From Xanthomarina arctica (GTDB lineage: Bacteria > Bacteroidota > Bacteroidia > Flavobacteriales > Flavobacteriaceae), in contig NZ_BMFQ01000001.1 of NCBI RefSeq assembly GCF_014638915.1, positions 62,001 to 126,000 on the forward strand: DNA of 64,000 nt, given 5' to 3'. Made by a program: the position numbers and the translations under genes. Positions 37,746 through 53,540 of this stretch are shown here, in pieces; position 1 is the first letter of the stretch, and every line of letters starts with the position of its first letter. The notes beneath the pieces are model-generated. The model did not search any database. It was not told the DNA's origin and was given only the letters and a program-made list of their open reading frames with translations.

Positions 37746-37873
37746 TTTAGTTATCTATCCAACATTCGATAAATGAATCGAAAATTAAGTAGAATTTAGC
37801 ACCTTCTTAATTGCTTAAGGGTTGCTAAGGCTTCAATGGGTCTAATCCCTCCGCCTTTCTTGATAACACTTCA
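37746..37873 (-). ncRNA. SAM-I (S-box) riboswitch
   Basis: On the minus strand the conserved S-box core is present in order: GTTATCAAG at the 5' side, AGGCGGAGGGA, then GACCC, GAAGCCTTAGCAACC, AAGGTGCTAAATTC, a P4-like hairpin TTCGATTCATTTATCGAA and the closing GATAAC that pairs with the initial GTTATC. It sits in the 350-bp gap before metY, in sense with the whole met/thr operon. SAM binding is expected to reduce expression. No strong terminator is seen between it and metY, so control may be of translation. The rest of the gap holds only a promoter. Confidence 0.93.
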
Positions 37874-44096: not shown

Positions 44097-45674
44097 TTAT
44101 AAAATATAATCTGTGCTCACAAAATTTGAAGCTTTAGAATCTAATAATTCTTTTAAAATAGCATTATTATATGCGTTGTCCTTAGATGCTACAAAAGTTC
44201 TAATTGAAAAAGAACGTAAAGCATCGTGAACACTTAATGTTGCAACAGCAGAATCTTTTCTTCCTGTAAAAGGATAGACATCTGGTCCACGCTGACAAGA
44301 ACTATTTAAATTAACACGACATACCAAGTTAACTAAGGTGTCTATTAAAGGTGCTAGAGTTTTAACATCAGCCCCAAACAAGCTTACTTGTTGCCCGTAA
44401 TTTGAAGCGGCCATATCATCTAAAGGCTCTTCAATATCACTAAAAGAAACCACTGGAATGACTGGACCGAATTGTTCCTCTTGAAATACACGCATATCTT
44501 TGGTTACAGGATATAAAACTGCTGGAAAAATGTAATTCTCTGTGGTTTCACCTCCTTTTTTATTAATGACTTTTGCTCCTTTTGCAACGGCATCATCTAT
44601 TAATTCTTGAATATATGCTGGTTTATCAGGTTCTGGTAATGGTGTTAATTTGGCTCCATCTTCCCAAGGATTTCCAAATTTTAGTGCATCTACTTTTGCT
44701 GAAAAGCGTTTATTAAACTCTTCAACTATAGCTTCATGCACATACAATACCTTTAAAGCTGTACAACGTTGACCATTAAAGGAAGTTGCTCCTGCAATAC
44801 ATTCTTCTATAGCCAAATCTAAATCGGCATCTTTTAAAACGATAGCTGGGTTTTTAGCTTCCAAACCTAAAACCAAACGCAATCTATTACTTTTTGGGTG
44901 TTGGTTTTGCAAGGCATTTGCAGATTTACTATTGCCAATTAAAGCCAACACATCAACCTTTCCAGATTGCATGATTGGAGTTGCAACGGTTCTTCCTCTT
45001 CCGTATATAATATTTACAACGCCGTTTGGAAAACTAGTTTGAAAGGCTTCTAATAAAGGTGAAATTAATAAAACACCATGTTTTGCTGGTTTAAAAATGG
45101 CTGTATTCCCCATAATTAATGCGGGAATTAAAAGCGCAAATGTTTCATTTAAAGGATAATTATAAGGTCCTAAACAAAGAACAACTCCTAGTGGGCCACG
45201 ACGAATATGGGCATTGACACCAGAATTTTTTTCAAATTTGGCGCTATTACGATCCATTTGTTTGTAATCTTCAATGGTATCATAAATGTATTCAACAGTT
45301 CTATCGAATTCCTTTTGAGAATCTCCTAAATTTTTACCAATCTCCCACATTAATAATTTAACAATTTCTTCGCGCTTGGTTTTCATCTGTGTTACAAACT
45401 TTTCCATGCACGCAATACGGTCAACCACCTTCATGGTTGGCCATAAACCTTGTCCTTTATTATAAGCTAAAGTTGCTGCGTTTAATGCGTCTAAAGCTTC
45501 CTTTTCTCCTAATACTGGAATGGTTCCTAGAAGTGTTGGTTTATAATCTGGAGTAGAAGATATTGTTGAATAAACGTCGGAAGTTTCTCCTGCCCAAGGT
45601 TTCAATTCTCCTCCTACTAAATAAGTTTGTTGGTTTAAAATGTTTTTAATTTGATACTGTTCAGGAATATTCAT
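44097..45674 (-). CDS. gapN: NADP-dependent glyceraldehyde-3-phosphate dehydrogenase (GapN-type aldehyde dehydrogenase)
   Basis: Non-phosphorylating aldehyde dehydrogenase of 525 residues. The general base Glu is in [16 protein letters not shown] near residue 267 and the catalytic Cys in [13 protein letters not shown] near residue 301. The [20 protein letters not shown] segment and the C-terminal block [20 protein letters not shown], then [16 protein letters not shown], are hallmarks of the plant-like GapN group. The product would be 3-phosphoglycerate plus NADPH. It lies 14 nt after ilvA at the end of the ilv operon, an unexpected position that suggests NADPH supply for IlvC, though this is inference. 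Confidence 0.88.
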
Positions 45675-45688
45675 AAAATGTATTTTGT

Positions 45689-46957
45689 TTAAACTAAAAA
45701 TTGAAATAAATCGGGTTTATCGTTAAGGTAATCTCCATAAAAATCATGAAGTTTCATTTTGGTAATAAGAGGTTGTAAATCTGAAGGCGATTTAAGTTCT
45801 AAGCCTACAACAGCAACCTCATTTTCTCTGTTTGCTTTTTTTGTGTATTCAAAATGTGTAATATCGTCGGTTGGACCTAAAATATCCACCACAAAATCTC
45901 GTAAAGCTCCTGCACGTTGCGGGAATTTAATAATAAAATAATGCTTTAGATTCGCATAAATTAAGGCGCGTTCTTTTATTTCAGCCATTCGGGTAATATC
46001 ATTATTACTTCCGCTAATAACACAGACCACATTTTTTCCTTTTATCTCTTCGGCATATTGTTCTAAAGCAGAAATACTCAAAGCACCAGCTGGTTCTACA
46101 ACAATAGCATCTTTATTGTAAAGATCTAAAATAATTTGACAAATATGACCTTCATCCACAGTAATAACATTTGATAAATTTTCTTTACAAATTGCAAAAT
46201 TTAGGTCTCCAACACGTTTTACAGCTGCTCCATCTACAAAGCTTGTAATCGTTTTTAATTCTGTATTTCTATTGTTTTTTATCGAGGTTAACATGGATGG
46301 TGCGCCATTTGGTTCCACACCAATAATTTTTGTTTGCGGTGATAATATCTTAAACACCGAAGATAAGCCTGCGGAAAGTCCGCCACCTCCAATAGGTACA
46401 AATACATAATGTATGGGATGAGATTTGGCTTGGTCTATAATCTCTAAGCCAACCGTAGCTTGACCTTCAATCACTTTTTCATCATTAAAAGGATGTATAA
46501 AAGTTTTGTTCAGGCGTTCACATTCTTCCATTGCTGCATGGTAAGCATCATCAAAAGTATCACCAATTAAAATAACATCCACATAAGCTTCCCCAAACAT
46601 TTTCACTTGTTCAACTTTTTGATTAGGTGTTGGCGCAGGCATAAAAATAGTTCCTTTTATCTTTAACAGCTTACAAGAAATGGCCACACCTTGTGCATGG
46701 TTACCAGCACTTGCGCATACTATTTCATTCTCAATTTGAGAGGTGTTTAAAGAAGAAATTTTATTATAAGCGCCACGAATTTTATAGGAGCGTACTTCTT
46801 GCAAATCCTCTCGTTTAAAATACACATTTGCATCGTACTTTTTAGAGTAATGTGCGTTCTTAGTTAAAGGCGTTATAGAAGCAATGCCTTTTAGTTTTTC
46901 TGCTGCTAATTCAACAGCTTTTAAGGTTGGCTTATATATTGTTGTCATATTTTCCAT
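45689..46957 (-). CDS. ilvA: Threonine ammonia-lyase
   Basis: PLP enzyme that deaminates threonine to 2-ketobutyrate, the entry to isoleucine. The PLP lysine is in [19 protein letters not shown] near residue 57; [10 protein letters not shown], the glycine loop [13 protein letters not shown] near residue 185 and [13 protein letters not shown] follow. Residues 330-422 form a single ACT-like domain ([20 protein letters not shown]), the short type rather than the double-ACT E. coli form. The frame is open to a GTG at 46963, but the ATG at 46957 fits the hairpin-spacer-ATG layout; ATG 46948 is another option. It lies in the ilv operon after ilvC. Confidence 0.92.
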
Positions 46958-46965
46958 AGTCACTT

Positions 46966-46979
46966 CCCATAAAAGTGGG
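46966..46979 (-). repeat. Start-codon hairpin repeat before ilvA (degenerate)
   Basis: A 5-bp stem CCCAT/GTGGG with loop AAAA, followed on the coding strand by GGGAA-type sequence, GTGACT and ATG. It has decayed compared with the metF copy but keeps the spacer. Confidence 0.5.
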
Positions 46980-47001
46980 CATTTTTTTCTTATATAAAAT
47001 A

Positions 47002-47027
47002 CCTGAAAGGTTTTAAAATCTTGCAGG
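47002..47027. repeat. Palindromic repeat (AAGGTTTT core), copy 2
   Basis: A degenerate relative of the palindrome at 27985-28011, with CCTG at one end, CAGG at the other and a GGTTTTAAAATC centre. It fills most of the ilvC-ilvA gap together with the ilvA start-codon hairpin. Confidence 0.5.
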
Positions 47028-47036
47028 ATAATTAGA

Positions 47037-48539
47037 TTATGCTAATACTGAAGCTTCAGTTTCTATATCTGATTTTATAATTTTCATTGCTGTCATTGCC
47101 GCTCTTAAACGTTTTCCAACAGCTTCAATTGGGTGATTTCTAATGGCATCATTGACTTCAATTAATTCCACATTATCAACTCCGTTTACTGTTGAAAAGG
47201 ATTCTCCAATAATATCCGTTTTTACTGTTTTCATAAAATCGCTTAATAATGGTTTGCAAGCATGATCAAATAAATAGCAACCATATTCTGCCGTATCAGA
47301 AATGACATTATTCATTTCAAATAATTTCTTTCTAGCAATGGTGTTTGCTATTAATGGTAATTCATGCAAGGATTCGTAGTATGCAGAATCTTCTATTATT
47401 CCGGCACTTACCATAGTCTCGAATGCTAATTCCACGCCAGATTTCACGAATGCTACTAAAAGCACGCCATGGTCAAAATATTCTTGTTCAGAAATATGAT
47501 TGGAGGTTAAAACTGTTTTTTCGAAGGCAGTTTCACCAGTTGCAGCTCTCCAGGATAGCAGGTTTATATCGTCGTTTGCCCAATCTTCCATCATGGTTGT
47601 AGAAAAATGACCTGAAATGATATCGTCCATATGTTTTTCAAATAACGGACGCATGATGTCTTTTAATTCTTCAGATAATTGGTAAGCTTTTATTTTTGCA
47701 GGATTAGACAATCTGTCCATCATGTTTGTTATGCCTCCATGTTTTAAAGCTTCTGTAATGGTTTCCCATCCATATTGAATTAATTTTGCTGCATAACCTG
47801 GCTCAATGCCTTCTTCTACCATTTTATCAAACGATAAGATGGCTCCAGTTTGTAATAAACCACATAAAATGGTTTGTTCTCCCATTAAATCACTTTTCAC
47901 CTCAGCAATAAAAGAGGATTGTAAAACGCCTGCTTTATGTCCACCTGTTGCTGTCGCATATGCTTTTGCTTGAGTCCACCCTTTATGTTCTGGATCGTTT
48001 TCTGGATGCACAGCAATTAATGTTGGCACTCCAAATCCACGCTTATATTCTTCTCTAACTTCGGTTCCTGGACATTTTGGTGCCACCATAATAACCGTTA
48101 AATCTTCACGAACTTTGGTGCCTTCTTCAACAATATTAAAACCGTGAGAATAACTTAAAGTGGCTCCTTTTTTCATTAAAGGCATCACTGCTTTTACCAC
48201 ACTTGTATGTTGCTTGTCTGGTGTTAAATTCAAAACCAAATCTGCCGTAGGAATTAATTCTTCATAAGTTCCAACCTGAAATCCGTTAGAAGTTGCTTTT
48301 TTATAAGAATCGCGTTTTTCATCTATAGCAACTTGCCTTAACGTATACGAAATGTCTAATCCAGAATCACGCATATTCAAGCCTTGATTTAGGCCTTGAG
48401 CCCCACAACCAACAATAACGATTTTCTTTCCTTTTAAAGCGTTTACGCCATCTTCAAATTCTGAAGCGTCCATAAAACGACATTTTCCTAATTGATCTAA
48501 CTGATTTCTTAATGATAAGGTGTTAAAATAATTTGACAT
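47037..48539 (-). CDS. ilvC: Ketol-acid reductoisomerase, class II (long form)
   Basis: Converts 2-acetolactate and 2-aceto-2-hydroxybutyrate to dihydroxy acids using NADPH. The Rossmann motif [20 protein letters not shown] is near residue 42, followed by [20 protein letters not shown] near residue 152. At 500 residues with a duplicated C-terminal knotted domain ([20 protein letters not shown] and the second copy around 360-480), it is the class II type seen in E. coli. It is 11 nt after ilvN. Confidence 0.94.
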
Positions 48540-48550
48540 GGTTTTTGTTT

Positions 48551-49081
48551 TTAATGTTGAAATGCTTTAAGCATTGTTGATATTTTCATTTCATCTTTTG
48601 TAACAGACACACGTCCAGAACGTGTAAATTGCATAATCCCAAAGACACTTAATTCTCTATATAATAATTCTATTTCTTCTTTTTTTCCAGACTTTTCAAT
48701 GACGAAAAACTCTTTATTAACTATTACTATTCTTGCGTTACTATCTTTGATGATATTTTGAACTTCTGGTTCGTCAAATAATAATTCTGATTTGATTTTG
48801 AACAAGCAAGATTCTTGATAAATAATTTGATCTTCTGTATGATAATACGCTTTTATTACTTCCACTTGTTTTTCAATTTGACCTTGAATTTTTTTCATTC
48901 TTTCTTCTGAAAGTTGCACCACAATGGTCCATTTAGAAACACCTTCAATTTCAGAAACCGATGAATTAATGCTCTCGATATTTATATGACGACGTTGAAA
49001 AATTGCCGAAATTCTATTCAGTAATCCGATGTTGTTTTCTGTATAAATTGATACCGTAAATTGTTTTATTTCGCTTTCCAT
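48551..49081 (-). CDS. ilvN: Acetolactate synthase small (regulatory) subunit
   Basis: Regulatory subunit that confers valine feedback on IlvB. Residues 1-80 are an ACT domain ([34 protein letters not shown]). Residues 90-176 form the C-terminal ALS small-subunit domain. The 176-residue length is normal. It begins 2 nt after the ilvB stop, so the two are coupled. Confidence 0.9.
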
Positions 49082-49083
49082 AA

Positions 49084-50820
49084 TTATTCTAATCTTATAT
49101 CTGATACACTTGCTCCTGTTGGAATCATTGGAAATACATTTCCTTCTTTCTCAACACATACTTCTAAAAAATAAGGCCCTTTGGAATCTATCATTTCCTT
49201 AACTGATGCTTTTAAATCTTTTCTTTCTGTTACTTTTTTTGCATCAATAAAATAACCTTTTGCAATGGCTACAAAATCTGGGTTTGTCATTTCTGTAGAT
49301 GCATATCGTTTATCAAAAAACATCTGTTGCCATTGACGCACCATTCCAAGGAATTCATTGTTTAAAACCACAATCTTCACGGGTACTTTTTGCTGAAAAA
49401 TTGTCCCTAATTCTTGAATTGTCATTTGGTAACCACCATCCCCAGCAATCATCACCACTTCTCTTTCTGGAGCTGCCATTTTTGCACCAATGGCTGCGGG
49501 CAGAGCAAAACCCATAGTCCCTAAACCTCCAGAAGTAATATTACTTTTGGTAGTAGTAAATTCTGCATATCTACAAGCTATCATTTGATGTTGCCCAACA
49601 TCACTCACAATTGCGGCATCTCCTTTGGTTTGGATGTTGATTTCTTTCAACACTTCTGCCATGGTTAAACCTTCTTTGGTAGGATATAATTCATTTTTAA
49701 TGACTTTTTCATATTCAATTTCATATAAATCTTTAAATTTCTGATGCCATTCGGGATGTGAATTGGCTTTCAATAAGGGTAATAAGGCTTCTAAACTTGC
49801 TTTTGCATCACCAAGAACAGCCACATCTGTTTTCACATTTTTATCCACTTCTGCAGGATCAATTTCAAAATGAATGACTTTAGCCTGTTTTGCATAAGAT
49901 TCTAAATTTCCTGTTACACGATCGTCAAAACGCATTCCAATAGCTATTAAAACATCGCAATCGTTGGTTAAAACATTTGGCGCATAATTACCATGCATTC
50001 CAACCATTCCAACATTTAGCGGATGTTTTGTAGGGATTGCTGAAGCACCTAAAATAGTCCAAGCTGAAGGAATTCCAGCTTTTTCAATCACCGCTTTAAA
50101 GGCTTCTTCGGCTTTCCCTAAAATAACGCCTTGTCCCCAAACTACTAATGGTTTTTTGGCATTATTAATAAGCTCTGCTGCGGCTTTTAAGGAATTTTTA
50201 TCTGTATCAGGAATTGGCTTATAGCTTCTTATACCTTTGCATTTTTCGTATTTGAAATCAAATTCTTCAAATTGCGCATCCTTAGTAATATCCACTAAAA
50301 CTGGTCCTGGACGACCACTTTTTGCTATATAAAATGCCTTAGCTATCACTTCAGGAATCTGTGACGCTGTGGTAATTTGACAATTCCATTTGGTTACAGG
50401 AGTAGAAATCCCGATGATATCTGTTTCCTGAAAAGCATCGCTTCCTAATAAGTGAGATCCAACCTGCCCAGTAATACAAACCATGGGAGTAGAATCTATT
50501 TGAGCATCTGCAATCCCTGTAATTAAATTAGTTGCTCCCGGGCCAGAGGTTGCAATGGCAACTCCCACTTTACCTGATATTCTTGCATAGCCTTGAGCGG
50601 CATGGGTAGCGCCTTGCTCATGACGGGTTAACACATGATGAATTTTATCTTGATACTTGTATAGCTCGTCATAAACTGGCATAATGGCTCCTCCAGGATA
50701 TCCATAAAGGATTTCTACACCTTCGGCTAAAAGACATTTTATTACCGCTTCGCTACCAGAAATTCGCTCGGTTGCTTCCTTGCTTGTTGCTTTTTCTTGT
50801 AAAGTTTGAGTTTCTTTCAT
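49084..50820 (-). CDS. ilvB: Acetolactate synthase large (catalytic) subunit
   Basis: Thiamine-diphosphate enzyme of 578 residues making 2-acetolactate or 2-aceto-2-hydroxybutyrate. Domains in order: Pyr (LLAEGVEILYGYPGGAIMPV, catalytic Glu in LTRHEQGATHAAQGYAR), FAD/central (WGQGVILGKAEEA) and PP (GDGGYQMTIQELGTIFQQKV, then NNEFLGMVRQWQQMFFDKRY). The full set of catalytic motifs is present. It lies 86 bp after ilvD in the same operon. Confidence 0.94.
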   Translation of the reverse strand: MKETQTLQEKATSKEATERISGSEAVIKCLLAEGVEILYGYPGGAIMPVYDELYKYQDKIHHVLTRHEQGATHAAQGYARISGKVGVAIATSGPGATNLITGIADAQIDSTPMVCITGQVGSHLLGSDAFQETDIIGISTPVTKWNCQITTASQIPEVIAKAFYIAKSGRPGPVLVDITKDAQFEEFDFKYEKCKGIRSYKPIPDTDKNSLKAAAELINNAKKPLVVWGQGVILGKAEEAFKAVIEKAGIPSAWTILGASAIPTKHPLNVGMVGMHGNYAPNVLTNDCDVLIAIGMRFDDRVTGNLESYAKQAKVIHFEIDPAEVDKNVKTDVAVLGDAKASLEALLPLLKANSHPEWHQKFKDLYEIEYEKVIKNELYPTKEGLTMAEVLKEINIQTKGDAAIVSDVGQHQMIACRYAEFTTTKSNITSGGLGTMGFALPAAIGAKMAAPEREVVMIAGDGGYQMTIQELGTIFQQKVPVKIVVLNNEFLGMVRQWQQMFFDKRYASTEMTNPDFVAIAKGYFIDAKKVTERKDLKASVKEMIDSKGPYFLEVCVEKEGNVFPMIPTGASVSDIRLE

Positions 50821-50906: not shown

Positions 50907-52586
50907 TTAAAACTCATCTGTTACACATCCCATAGATGCTGACGATACTGTTTTAGCATATTTATAGAGCACACCTCTTTTAAATTTTAATTCTGGTGCT
51001 TTCCATTGTTTTCTTCTTTCTTCTAATTCTGCTTCTGAAACTTCTAATGAAATGGCGTTTGATTCGGCATCAATCGTAATTAAATCGCCATCTTTCACTA
51101 AAGCTATGGCACCACCAACCTGAGCTTCTGGTGTAATATGTCCAACAACAAATCCATGAGTTCCTCCAGAAAATCGTCCATCTGTAATTAAGGCGACATC
51201 TTGACCTAGACCTGCACCAATAATTGCTGCTGTAGGCTTTAACATTTCTGGCATTCCAGGACCACCTTTCGGGCCTTCGTAACGGATTACAACCACGTCT
51301 CCTTTTTCTACCTTACCATCTCTAATTCCATCGTTCGCAGCGTATTCACCTTCAAATACTTTTGCTTTTCCAACAAAACGCAAACCTTCTTTTCCAGTGA
51401 TTTTTGCAACACTTCCTTCGGTAGCTAAATTGCCATAAAGCATTCTTAGATGTCCAGATATTTTTATTGGATTTTCAATAGGTTTAATAACATCTTGACC
51501 TTCTTTTAAATCTGCTACATCTAACAAATTCTCAGCAATTGTTTTTCCAGTAACGGTTAAACAATCCCCGTGTAGCAATCCTTTTTTAAGAAGATATTTC
51601 ATAACTGCAGGAATCCCTCCTACGGCATGTACATCTTCCATTAAATATTTTCCACTTGGTTTTAAGTCGGCTAAAAACGGAGTTGTATCACTTATTTTTT
51701 GAAAATCTTGTAATGTGAAATCAATTTGAGCTGCTCTAGCAATTGCTAAAAAGTGTAATACGGCATTTGTAGAACCTCCTAAAATGGTTACCAATCTTAC
51801 AGCATTTTCTAAAGATTTACGCGTAATAACATCTGAAGGTTTGATATCTTTTTCCAATAACAATCTTAAAGCTTCCCCAGCTTTTACAGACTCTTCTTTT
51901 TTAGCATCGCTTAATGCTGGATTAGAAGAGTTAAAAGGCAAGGTCATACCTAATGCTTCAATAGCTGATGCCATGGTATTGGCTGTATACATGCCACCGC
52001 AAGCACCAGCTCCAGGACATGCCTTTTCAACAATATTTTGGTATTCAGTTTCAGACATAGTACCAGCAACTTTGCTTCCCCATGCTTCAAAAGCTGAAAC
52101 AACATCTAATTTTTTTCCGTTATGGCAACCAGAATCAATAGTTCCACCATAAACCAGAATACTAGGTCTATTTAAGCGAATCATGGCTATTAGTGCTCCA
52201 GGCATATTTTTATCGCAACCTACAACAGTAATTAATCCGTCGTAACTCATGGCTTGAACCACCGTTTCCATGGAATCTGCAATAATATCGCGAGAAGGCA
52301 AAGAATACCTCATTCCAGGAGTACCCATTGAAATTCCGTCACTAACACCAATGGTGTTAAAAATTAATCCAATAACATCTTCATTACTAGTTCCTTTCTT
52401 GACTAATTTTGCCAAATCGTTAAGGTGCATGTTACACGGATTCCCTTCATAACCCGTACTTGCAATTCCAACCATAGGTTTAAAAAAATCTTCGTTTGTT
52501 AACCCAATAGCGTGCAACATAGCTTGTGCGGCTGGTTGCGTAGGATCTTGCGTAACTGTTTTACTATATTTATTTAATTGATTCAT
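50907..52586 (-). CDS. ilvD: Dihydroxy-acid dehydratase
   Basis: Fe-S dehydratase of 559 residues that forms 2-keto acids for valine and isoleucine. Cluster cysteines are in [11 protein letters not shown] (near 50), [14 protein letters not shown] (near 123) and [20 protein letters not shown] (near 195). The later [18 protein letters not shown] and ending CVTDEF are typical. It is the first structural gene of the ilv operon, about 320 nt downstream of the second attenuator terminator's leader. The 255 bp between that terminator and the ATG show no further structure that I can support. Confidence 0.95.
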
Positions 52587-52842
52587 AATGCTTTTGACAT
52601 TTTTTTAATTAGAAAACGTATCCTTAGTTATTACAAACTTATTGTTATGAGAAACTAAACTGCTTTCATTAAAATATGTATTCATAATTTTTAAAAGATC
52701 GAAATTAATAATTTGTGTTTTTCTTATTGTTATTGTATTACCTAATCGACTAAATTCACATACCTACAATTTATTATAAACCACTATTAATCAATTATTT
52801 GCATTCTTATTAATATGATGCTCAATCATGTCGATTCTCAAT

Positions 52843-52873
52843 AAAAAAAGCCTGTATCTAAATGGATACAGGC
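52843..52873 (-). terminator. Attenuator terminator 2 of the ilv operon
   Basis: On the minus strand GCCTGTATC pairs with GATACAGGC (complement of 52865-52873 and 52850-52858, loop 6 nt), followed by seven U. The 5' arm CCTGTATC can pair instead with GATATAGG (complement of 52891-52898), which begins 3 nt after the leader 2 stop codon. This is the arrangement expected of an antiterminator masked by a terminating ribosome. Confidence 0.9.
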
Positions 52874-52901
52874 TTTTTTATATATAAGGACCTATATCAA
52901 C

Positions 52902-52955
52902 TCAACATGAGTTAATAATGACAATAATGTTTATGATAACTGACAATGTGTTCAT
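52902..52955 (-). CDS. Ilv leader peptide 2
   Basis: A 17-residue open frame reading MNTLSVIINIIVIINSC: 6 Ile, 2 Val and 1 Leu. ATG and TGA are present. It is followed at once by the antiterminator segment and attenuator terminator 2. Stalling at Ile or Val codons would free the antiterminator and allow transcription into ilvDBNCA. Confidence 0.85.
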   Translation of the reverse strand: MNTLSVIINIIVIINSC

Positions 52956-52967
52956 TTTATATATACT

Positions 52968-52998
52968 AAAAAAGCCTTCCCAAATAGGGAAGGCTTTT
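52968..52998 (-). terminator. Attenuator terminator 1 of the ilv operon
   Basis: A perfect 12-bp palindrome, AAAAGCCTTCCC/GGGAAGGCTTTT (arms 52970-52981 and 52987-52998, 5-nt loop), with a U run on the minus strand. A segment just after the leader 1 stop (AGGGAG) can pair with the 5' arm's CUUCCCU, a 6-bp alternative pairing with one G-U. Confidence 0.9.
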
Positions 52999-53030
52999 AA
53001 AACGTTTTATGTTTATTAAATACCACTCCC

Positions 53031-53093
53031 TTACCGTTGTGAAATAATCACGACGCTAATAATAGAAATGATATTGATAATTTGCTTGTTCAT
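53031..53093 (-). CDS. Ilv leader peptide 1
   Basis: A 20-residue open frame, MNKQIINIISIISVVIISQR: 8 Ile and 2 Val. It ends in TAA directly before the candidate antiterminator and terminator 1. Together with leader 2 it forms two complete leader-terminator units in series before ilvD. Confidence 0.87.
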   Translation of the reverse strand: MNKQIINIISIISVVIISQR

Positions 53094-53102
53094 TTATTAC
53101 TT

Positions 53103-53110
53103 CAAATATT
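53103..53110 (-). promoter_or_regulatory. Weak candidate -7 box of the ilv operon
   Basis: The minus strand reads AATATTTG, one base from TAnnTTTG and the same variant as before the SAM-I riboswitch. It is about 10 nt upstream of the leader 1 ATG, as in the aromatic operon. No convincing -33 box is seen. Confidence 0.3.
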
Positions 53111-53144
53111 AAAACTTTTTATTTTAAATCTAAAGAATCTTTAT

Positions 53145-53401: not shown

Positions 53402-53414
53402 CCTAATAATTACT

Positions 53415-53466
53415 AAGAGGAAAAATTTGTCTGATTGCAACCTCTCAAAAAAAATGCTAAAGCAGT
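53415..53466 (+). ncRNA. SAM-II-like riboswitch before metK
   Basis: A compact H-type pseudoknot is predicted. P1 is AGAGG (53416-53420) with CCTCT (53441-53445). The loop holds ATTTG...CTGATTGCAA, matching the conserved SAM-II loop pattern (ATTT...ATTGCAA in the reference as I recall it). The A-rich linker ends AAATGCTAAAG, and P2 forms between CTG (53431-53433) and CAG (53463-53465), and GC (53437-53438) with GC (53456-53457). It is about 50 nt long, starts at the predicted transcript 5' end and precedes the SAM synthetase gene, all expected for SAM-II. Confidence 0.75.
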
Positions 53467-53540
53467 AAAATTCTACTCCTCTAGCAAATAGCAATCCTAT
53501 TTAATTTTTGTATTTTAACACCTATTAAAACAGATATAAT

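Follow-up and report, generated by a model that had tools for sequence, protein, structure and literature searches.

The region considered here lies on the minus strand of the window, by which we mean the whole 64-kb stretch of DNA that was analysed, and is flanked by ilvD and the divergent metK gene. The label metK comes from the riboswitch upstream of that gene and from reading by eye, and the gene order ilvD-ilvB-ilvN-ilvC-ilvA on the other side was confirmed by NCBIfam. Read 5' to 3' from the sequence, leader 1, terminator 1, leader 2, terminator 2 and a stretch of about 250 nt precede ilvD. The individual features are the following:

53103..53111, minus strand: putative promoter P1 with the -7-like box TAATATTTG, which begins 18 nt upstream of the leader 1 ATG
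53031..53093, minus strand: putative leader 1 ORF MNKQIINIISIISVVIISQR, type A, 20 codons with 8 Ile and 2 Val; ATG at 53093, stop codon 53033-53031
53022..53031, minus strand: predicted antiterminator arm (segment 2) of unit 1, AGGGAGTGGT, which starts on the last base of the stop codon and pairs with 52994-52986
52970..52998, minus strand: predicted intrinsic terminator 1, AAAAGCCTTCCC...GGGAAGGCTTTT, with a T run to 52968; hairpin -19.4 kcal/mol
52902..52955, minus strand: putative leader 2 ORF MNTLSVIINIIVIINSC, type B, 17 codons with 6 Ile and 2 Val; ATG at 52955, stop codon 52904-52902
52890..52898, minus strand: predicted antiterminator arm (segment 2) of unit 2, GATATAGGT, 3 nt past the stop codon, which pairs with 52873-52865
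52844..52879, minus strand: predicted intrinsic terminator 2, AAAAAAGCCTGTATC...GATACAGGCTTTTTT; hairpin -20.1 kcal/mol
52700..52825, minus strand: conserved downstream element, possibly a promoter P2 with operator, from 69 aligned regions including that of the window
52825-52814, minus strand: first box of the element, TTGAGCATCATA
around 52800-52777, minus strand: dyad of the element
52757-52750, minus strand: further box of the element, GAATTTAG
52707-52700, minus strand: -7-like box of the element, TAATTTCG
50907..52586, minus strand: ilvD, dihydroxy-acid dehydratase, first gene of the operon proposed to be controlled (TIGR00110, 740.7 bits, above the cut-off)
44097..50820, minus strand: ilvB, ilvN, ilvC, ilvA and an aldehyde dehydrogenase gene (family search)

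The aldehyde dehydrogenase gene (44097-45674, minus strand) directly follows ilvA on its 3' side; it matched at least 38 models, and the 25 of them that were listed are all aldehyde dehydrogenases, each below its cut-off. The window also holds two classes of SAM riboswitch, a SAM-II at 53411-53470 on the plus strand (73.2 bits) before the metK-like gene and an S-box SAM aptamer at 37748-37869 on the minus strand (72.8 bits).

The first-pass annotation of this DNA had proposed two complete leader-peptide attenuators in series before ilvDBNCA, and both leaders and both terminators were indeed found, with leader lengths and Ile and Val counts exactly as it had given them. Ile or Val codons make up 10 of the 20 codons of leader 1 and 8 of the 17 of leader 2, so that the putative leaders have the make-up expected at an attenuator, a short ORF rich in codons for the products of the pathway, and between each of them and the first structural gene an intrinsic terminator is predicted. 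The 260-nt stretch as a whole has a folding energy of -73.6 kcal/mol (z = -7.8 against 200 shuffles). A simple, generic scan for sigma-70 promoters and terminators was uninformative at this region; it reported no terminator, in our reading because it demands T residues after the paired stem and the T run pairs here with the leading A run. Alternative pairings that begin close to the stop codons had been claimed as well, and they are present and longer than described, with 9 bp in each unit: AGGGAG(U)GGU pairs with GCCUUCCCU in unit 1 (one bulge, -12.4 kcal/mol), and GAUAUAGGU with GCCUGUAUC in unit 2 (-11.4 kcal/mol). As both terminators are more stable than the corresponding antiterminators, antitermination would have to be kinetic.

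How a translating ribosome could act on these pairings was modelled by folding the RNA that lies outside the ribosome at each codon, while the right arm of the terminator is still unmade, under the assumption of a 13-nt footprint that starts with the first base of the A-site codon. In unit 1 of the window the probability of the antiterminator stays at 0.9-1.0 up to the fourth codon ahead of the stop and is down to 0.0 at the stop itself, and in unit 2 it falls from 1.0 to 0.3 at the stop codon. Across 114 units the mean drops from 0.79 nine codons before the stop to 0.11 at the stop. Folding with the stop region masked, a check that the first pass had called for, thus predicts antitermination as long as the ribosome stands on Ile codons; close to the stop, where the ribosome is predicted to cover the antiterminator arm, antitermination would be lost. 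The protector helix between segments 1 and 2 has a probability of 0.24 and 0.23 in the two units of the window and values anywhere between 0.00 and 0.93 in the 40 units that make up the 20 double loci, and with no ribosome at all the antiterminator is predicted to form with a probability of 0.93 in unit 1 and 0.98 in unit 2. With protection this weak and an antiterminator predicted even without a ribosome, the untranslated state would not be expected to terminate strongly.

The recurrence of such units was followed in 225 ilvD upstream regions of up to 700 nt (those of L078, L132 and L142 are shorter), from which five exact duplicates had been dropped and in which near duplicates remain. The sample is not a random draw, since loci L004-L083 are the best 80 of at least 596 candidates and the remaining genomes, which belong to the same family, are those with the best scores among the matches listed by a search that found IlvD in 317 of 395 family genomes. 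A first finder looked for a hairpin with a T run and, ahead of it, a short ORF in which Ile/Val codons number at least 4 and account for at least 30%; it detected units in 94 of the 225 regions, 20 of them double and 74 single, leaving 131 with none. On the opposite strand it found 12 single and no double units among the same 225 regions, and in five dinucleotide shuffles 1-3 single and no double ones, which rules out a chance origin of the units. In the 64-kb window the same finder gave eight matches on both strands, two of which are the units described here, and no other two adjoin. The comparison of relatives that the first-pass annotation had asked for thus turned out in its favour.

These first counts understate the feature. 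In 48 of the 131 loci without a unit an ORF on the same strand ends no more than 150 nt from ilvD, and units are often present in the flank on the far side of this ORF, so that the 131 cannot simply be read as losses. The ORF was identified as ilvE in L003 by a family search and in L012, L085, L100 and L105 by eye; in L042 the longest ORF that was pulled out is not ilvE. A strict finder (at least 5 Ile/Val codons and 35%, with longer flanks for part of the loci) returned 34 double, one triple and 86 single loci and 104 with none, against seven singles and no double on the opposite strand of the 225 loci. Two loci that were double under the first finder (L122, L152) and one that was double in a laxer run (L041) are absent from the strict list, and the third "unit" that the laxer run gave at L100 was rejected, its ORF being poor in Ile and gone under the strict finder. 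Inspection by eye showed a terminator and a likely unit missed by the first finder at L006, L015, L177, L184, L187 and L226, to name examples. The first-pass annotation was therefore right that a tandem pair exists and wrong to call it unusual, as 35 of the 225 loci of this non-random sample have units in series under the strict finder. Double loci occur in the Flavobacteriaceae (among them Gaetbulibacter, Aquimarina, Lutibacter and Tenacibaculum) and also in a Cyclobacteriaceae MAG, in Chryseobacterium and in an Ignavibacteriae MAG. A genome of the window's own genus (G007, locus L003) has three Ile-rich units in series. They lie upstream of ilvE-ilvD, at about 1310 to 930 nt from ilvD, and units 2 and 3 are close copies of one another.

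The two units of a pair are mostly of different kinds. In 16 of the 20 double loci a type A unit (CCTTCC-like) is followed by a type B unit (CCTGTATC-like), the order B then A was found in none, and of the remaining four, two have A followed by A and two an unclassed first unit. In a comparison of 16 equally long type A leaders, the window's included, the distance per site is 0.18 within the leader, compared with 0.58 in the 30 nt on the 5' side and 0.54 in the 20 nt on the 3' side, and pN/pS is 0.51 in the leader frame and 0.91 and 2.10 in the shifted frames. These 16 were picked by length and a loose pattern, which favours conservation; with this reservation, the conserved leader frames that the first pass expected in relatives are seen. 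The position of the arm recurs as well, since the best-pairing arm begins between -3 and +9 nt of the first stop-codon base in all 40 units of the double loci, the stretch near the stop being the one searched. Examples of such arm pairs are TGATACAG with CTGTATCA, AAAGGG with CCCTTT, and GGAATGGT with GCCATTCC. At some loci, such as L003 unit 1, the arm seems by eye to overlap the last leader codons, and the stretch searched for segment 2 would score such loci low.

Segment 2 is matched in sequence to the terminator arm of its own unit. Scored as the best contiguous helix over 114 units, the mean is 14.26 for the own arm and 11.02 (sd 0.27) when arms are exchanged, a value that 0 of 2000 permutations reach, and a repeat on a deeper set, which 154 of the 157 units of the series set entered, gave 13.21 against 10.46 (sd 0.22). 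Taken by type, 0 of 5000 permutations reach the matched value for type A and 0 of 5000 for the mixed rest; type B alone is not above permutation (1403 of 5000), because its arms are nearly identical. Within the series loci, 72 comparisons set the own terminator arm against that of the neighbour: the own arm fits better in 58 of them, the neighbour's in 8, and 6 are ties. All of these counts take related loci as independent and are not to be read as probabilities. That each leader could switch its own terminator, as the first-pass annotation had suggested, agrees with these comparisons and with the predicted folding.

The history of the pair can be outlined from a tree of 126 IlvD sequences. 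It takes 13 changes on this tree to account for which loci are single and which are double, and well supported branches force at least 6 of these. This holds for 56 labelled rows, the 70 rows without units being left out of the change count, and the change counts are rough, as the labels are those of the first finder and some "none" rows are double under the strict one. The closest sequence (L084, 94% identity) has one unit and L004, a close relative, has none within 700 nt of ilvD by the first finder, so that the pair is not essential. The pattern suggests an ancient A-B pair that was lost repeatedly, with local duplications in addition (Aquimarina L016 and the triple of L003). The exact type B terminator pattern, GCCTGTATC-N3..14-GATACAGGCTTT, has a single site in the genome, which is terminator 2. 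It is present in 11 of 149 family genomes; in eight of these it sits upstream of ilvD at a distance of 345 nt or less, in G019 it lies about 1.1 kb upstream, and G052 and G107 carry it with the position of ilvD absent from the listing.

An IlvD match at E <= 1e-100 was obtained in only two of the eight genomes of the window's genus, one genome being 75% complete, and the pathway looks patchy within the genus. Two of the loci are filed outside the Bacteroidota, L067 as an actinobacterial MAG (Candidatus Planktophila) and L045 as Thalassovita, while their IlvD is Bacteroidota-like; both are probably mis-binned, as judged for L067 from its place in the IlvD tree and for L045 from its row in the match list only. 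In the window's own genome, a His-rich ORF, MTFIQSHHHHFHSGIQAS, and a terminator precede hisG (L252), which is likely a single histidine attenuator and speaks for attenuation at the ilv genes too.

It is of importance for the function of the pair whether the second unit can be reached independently of the first. The hairpin of terminator 1 and the ATG of leader 2 are separated by 14 nt in the window and by 9-45 nt in the 20 double loci, 15 of which have gaps of only 13-17 nt, and a motif scan, which a weak promoter could escape, found all 20 gaps to be free of TAnn(n)TTTG boxes. A promoter between the units that makes them independent was rejected on these grounds, and leader 2 would most simply be read only on transcripts that have passed terminator 1. 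A further suggestion of the first-pass annotation, that the two gates respond to two signals, did not hold, since over the 20 double loci the first leader and the second have the same content of Ile (0.35 and 0.38), Val (0.12 and 0.11) and Leu (0.06 and 0.06). This composition favours a single Ile/Val shortage that is read twice.

Two candidate promoters frame the units. A TAnn(n)TTTG box like that of P1 lies within 60 nt of the ATG of the first leader in 30 of the 94 loci with units, and it begins 16-18 nt upstream in 12 of the roughly 30 boxes; TAnnTTTG is the -7 consensus of the flavobacterial sigma-A (PMC9723704). Between terminator 2 and ilvD, the conserved element, which the first-pass annotation does not mention, follows the pattern TTGAACATCATA, a dyad around TGATAATCA flanked by TTTAAA-like stretches, TTGAATTTAG and, about 45 nt further on, TAATTT(C/T/A)G. 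Its first box is found with at most two mismatches in 85 of the 225 regions, compared with 19 of 225 in one letter shuffle; 16 of the 85 matches were left out of the alignment by eye, as chance or off-position matches, and TAnnTTnG is present in 67 of the 69 regions aligned, a count without shuffle control. No Rfam family matched the element at the gathering score. It occurs with and without detected attenuators upstream, the latter at L004, L086 and L103 as far as the 700 nt reach, and it may be a regulated second promoter P2. If so, P2 may bypass both gates, the operon would have an attenuated and an unattenuated input, and the gates need not set the total expression of ilvD.

The anatomy of the two units, their recurrence in relatives and the matched complementarity of their arms are established here, and from sequence, folding and comparison, on which all statements on regulation rest, we infer the roles of P1, translation, stalling and termination and the logic of the series. 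We regard it as highly probable that two classical ribosome-mediated transcription attenuators stand in series between P1 and ilvD and respond to one Ile/Val shortage. RNA polymerase would start at P1 and transcribe leader 1 first. When charged tRNA-Ile (and tRNA-Val) is ample, the ribosome would reach the stop codon and cover segment 2, terminator 1 would form and transcription would end. When Ile is short, the ribosome would stall on the Ile/Val codons, segment 2 would pair with the left arm of the terminator, and the polymerase would pass. Beyond terminator 1, leader 2 would be transcribed and a second, newly loaded ribosome would decide again with a different complementary pair, so that transcripts from P1 would reach ilvDBNCA only with both gates open, and P2 may add a second, unattenuated input further downstream. 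With two gates that must both open, read-through would multiply, which would lower the leak and steepen the response to the same shortage. A steeper response is therefore plausible, and by way of illustration a gate with 10% read-through in the fed and 80% in the starved state would give 1% and 64% for the pair, a range of 64 instead of 8, if read-through multiplies.

As alternative to this series of gates, a regulator-bound P2 in the element at 52825-52700 could make most of the ilvD mRNA, with the gates merely trimming the read-through from P1. The alignment of the element in so many regions, the near-universal TAnnTTnG and the presence of the element at the three loci that have no detected attenuator within 700 nt speak for such a promoter, and the boxes of the element lie some three helical turns apart, a spacing that Lrp-type sites can show. 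Its promoter nature is itself an inference, however, and gates that are irrelevant would hardly be kept, let alone multiplied. In the Flavobacterium loci L065, L066, L070 and L076, moreover, only about 40 nt separate the end of the terminator hairpin from ilvD, which leaves no room for the element, so that attenuation could act alone there, and we think that a dominant P2 is rather unlikely. Another possibility is that one gate suffices and that the second unit is a copy, redundant or in decay, that has no function of its own; the 86 single loci of the strict finder and the 13 changes on the IlvD tree are in line with this. A decaying copy is not what the double loci look like, though, as both units have a frame, a terminator and mostly a matching arm, and the order of A before B recurs in 16 of 20 loci; we consider this explanation improbable.

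That the two gates sense different signals, Ile in one case and Val or Leu in the other, and thus form an AND gate of two amino acids, would fit the differences between type A and type B leaders in their sequences and arms; it is made quite improbable by the leader composition, as Ile, Val and Leu are equally frequent in the first leader and in the second. It is very improbable that the terminators are controlled by a riboswitch, a T-box or a protein and that the ORFs are incidental. Such control would be compatible with the anatomy, but not easily with the conserved leader frame or with arms placed so regularly at the stop codons, where they were searched for. Besides, only SAM-II, SAM and tRNA families reach the Rfam gathering score in the window. 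No T-box reaches this score in the window and none is among the 50 weak matches at 52580-53120; for want of an Rfam match at the gathering score, a T-box or known riboswitch was rejected for this region.

Two ribosome-read gates in series may represent a more general design, recurrent in Bacteroidota, in which amino-acid leader-peptide attenuators are multiplied in series (two, and three in one relative of the same genus), mostly carry different complementary sequences that prevent cross-pairing, answer a single starvation signal in a multiplicative, switch-like manner with little leak and are supplemented by a separately regulated downstream promoter. We are evenly divided on whether this generalization holds as a whole. 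The different pairing sequences of the two gates in most double loci suggest selection for insulation, and related genomes with zero, one, two and once three detected units provide a natural test of what a repeated gate buys in terms of leak, steepness and noise. For the annotation of Bacteroidota genomes it would follow that tiny leader ORFs deserve attention, which gene finders probably tend to miss.

Leader-peptide attenuation is a textbook mechanism that is usually described as one unit, and a single ilv leader-peptide attenuator precedes the ilvGMEDA operon of Escherichia coli. A single one is likewise described for ilvBNC of Corynebacterium (PMC11857589), and the ilvD operon of Listeria has the leader-peptide attenuator Rli60, which is supported by mutants and has computed energies of -10.3 kcal/mol for the antiterminator and -17.1 kcal/mol for the terminator, similar to those in the window (PMC5864092). 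With these three systems the units described here share a leader rich in branched-chain amino acids, the competition of an antiterminator with a terminator and the same pathway, but in contrast to the one unit described in each of them, there are two, and in one relative three, complete units, and they are found in Bacteroidota. Within this phylum, amino-acid leader attenuators are represented by the Bacteroid-trp family of Rfam (RF01692), which scores 26.6 bits here, below its gathering score of 49, and by Flavobacterium psychrophilum, for which leader-peptide attenuation is briefly noted; the main text of that paper contains no word beginning with ilv, and the passages considered here mention no tandem arrangement (PMC9723704).

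Attenuators in tandem are known from other contexts. The mgtCBR leader of Salmonella has two short ORFs that each control elongation, as would be the case here, but it senses ATP and proline, acts additively and forms structures unlike intrinsic terminators (PMC3641672), whereas the pair in the window has the same amino acids in both leaders and two intrinsic terminators. Judged by leader composition, the two units thus do not appear to answer different signals in the manner of mgtCBR. The macrolide operon mefA/msrD likewise has two attenuators, a "double-lock" against basal expression, of which the second is ribosome-mediated with an intrinsic terminator; there, however, the second attenuator governs the downstream msrD only and both answer to the drug (PMC10314930). 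The same logic is expected of the tandem T-boxes before branched-chain amino acid operons, which also place two complete sensor-plus-terminator units in series, respond to tRNA charging and are expected to give a digital-like response, with the difference that T-boxes bind the tRNA directly and that the translating ribosome would be the sensor here (PMC12452182). Searches of the open-access PMC literature, which mostly does not extend to subscription papers, found no report of tandem Ile/Val leader-peptide attenuators, so that the mechanism of the single unit is known already and its putative tandem use before ilv genes appears to be new. If the multiplied design is real, it would be the ribosome-read counterpart of the tandem T-boxes.
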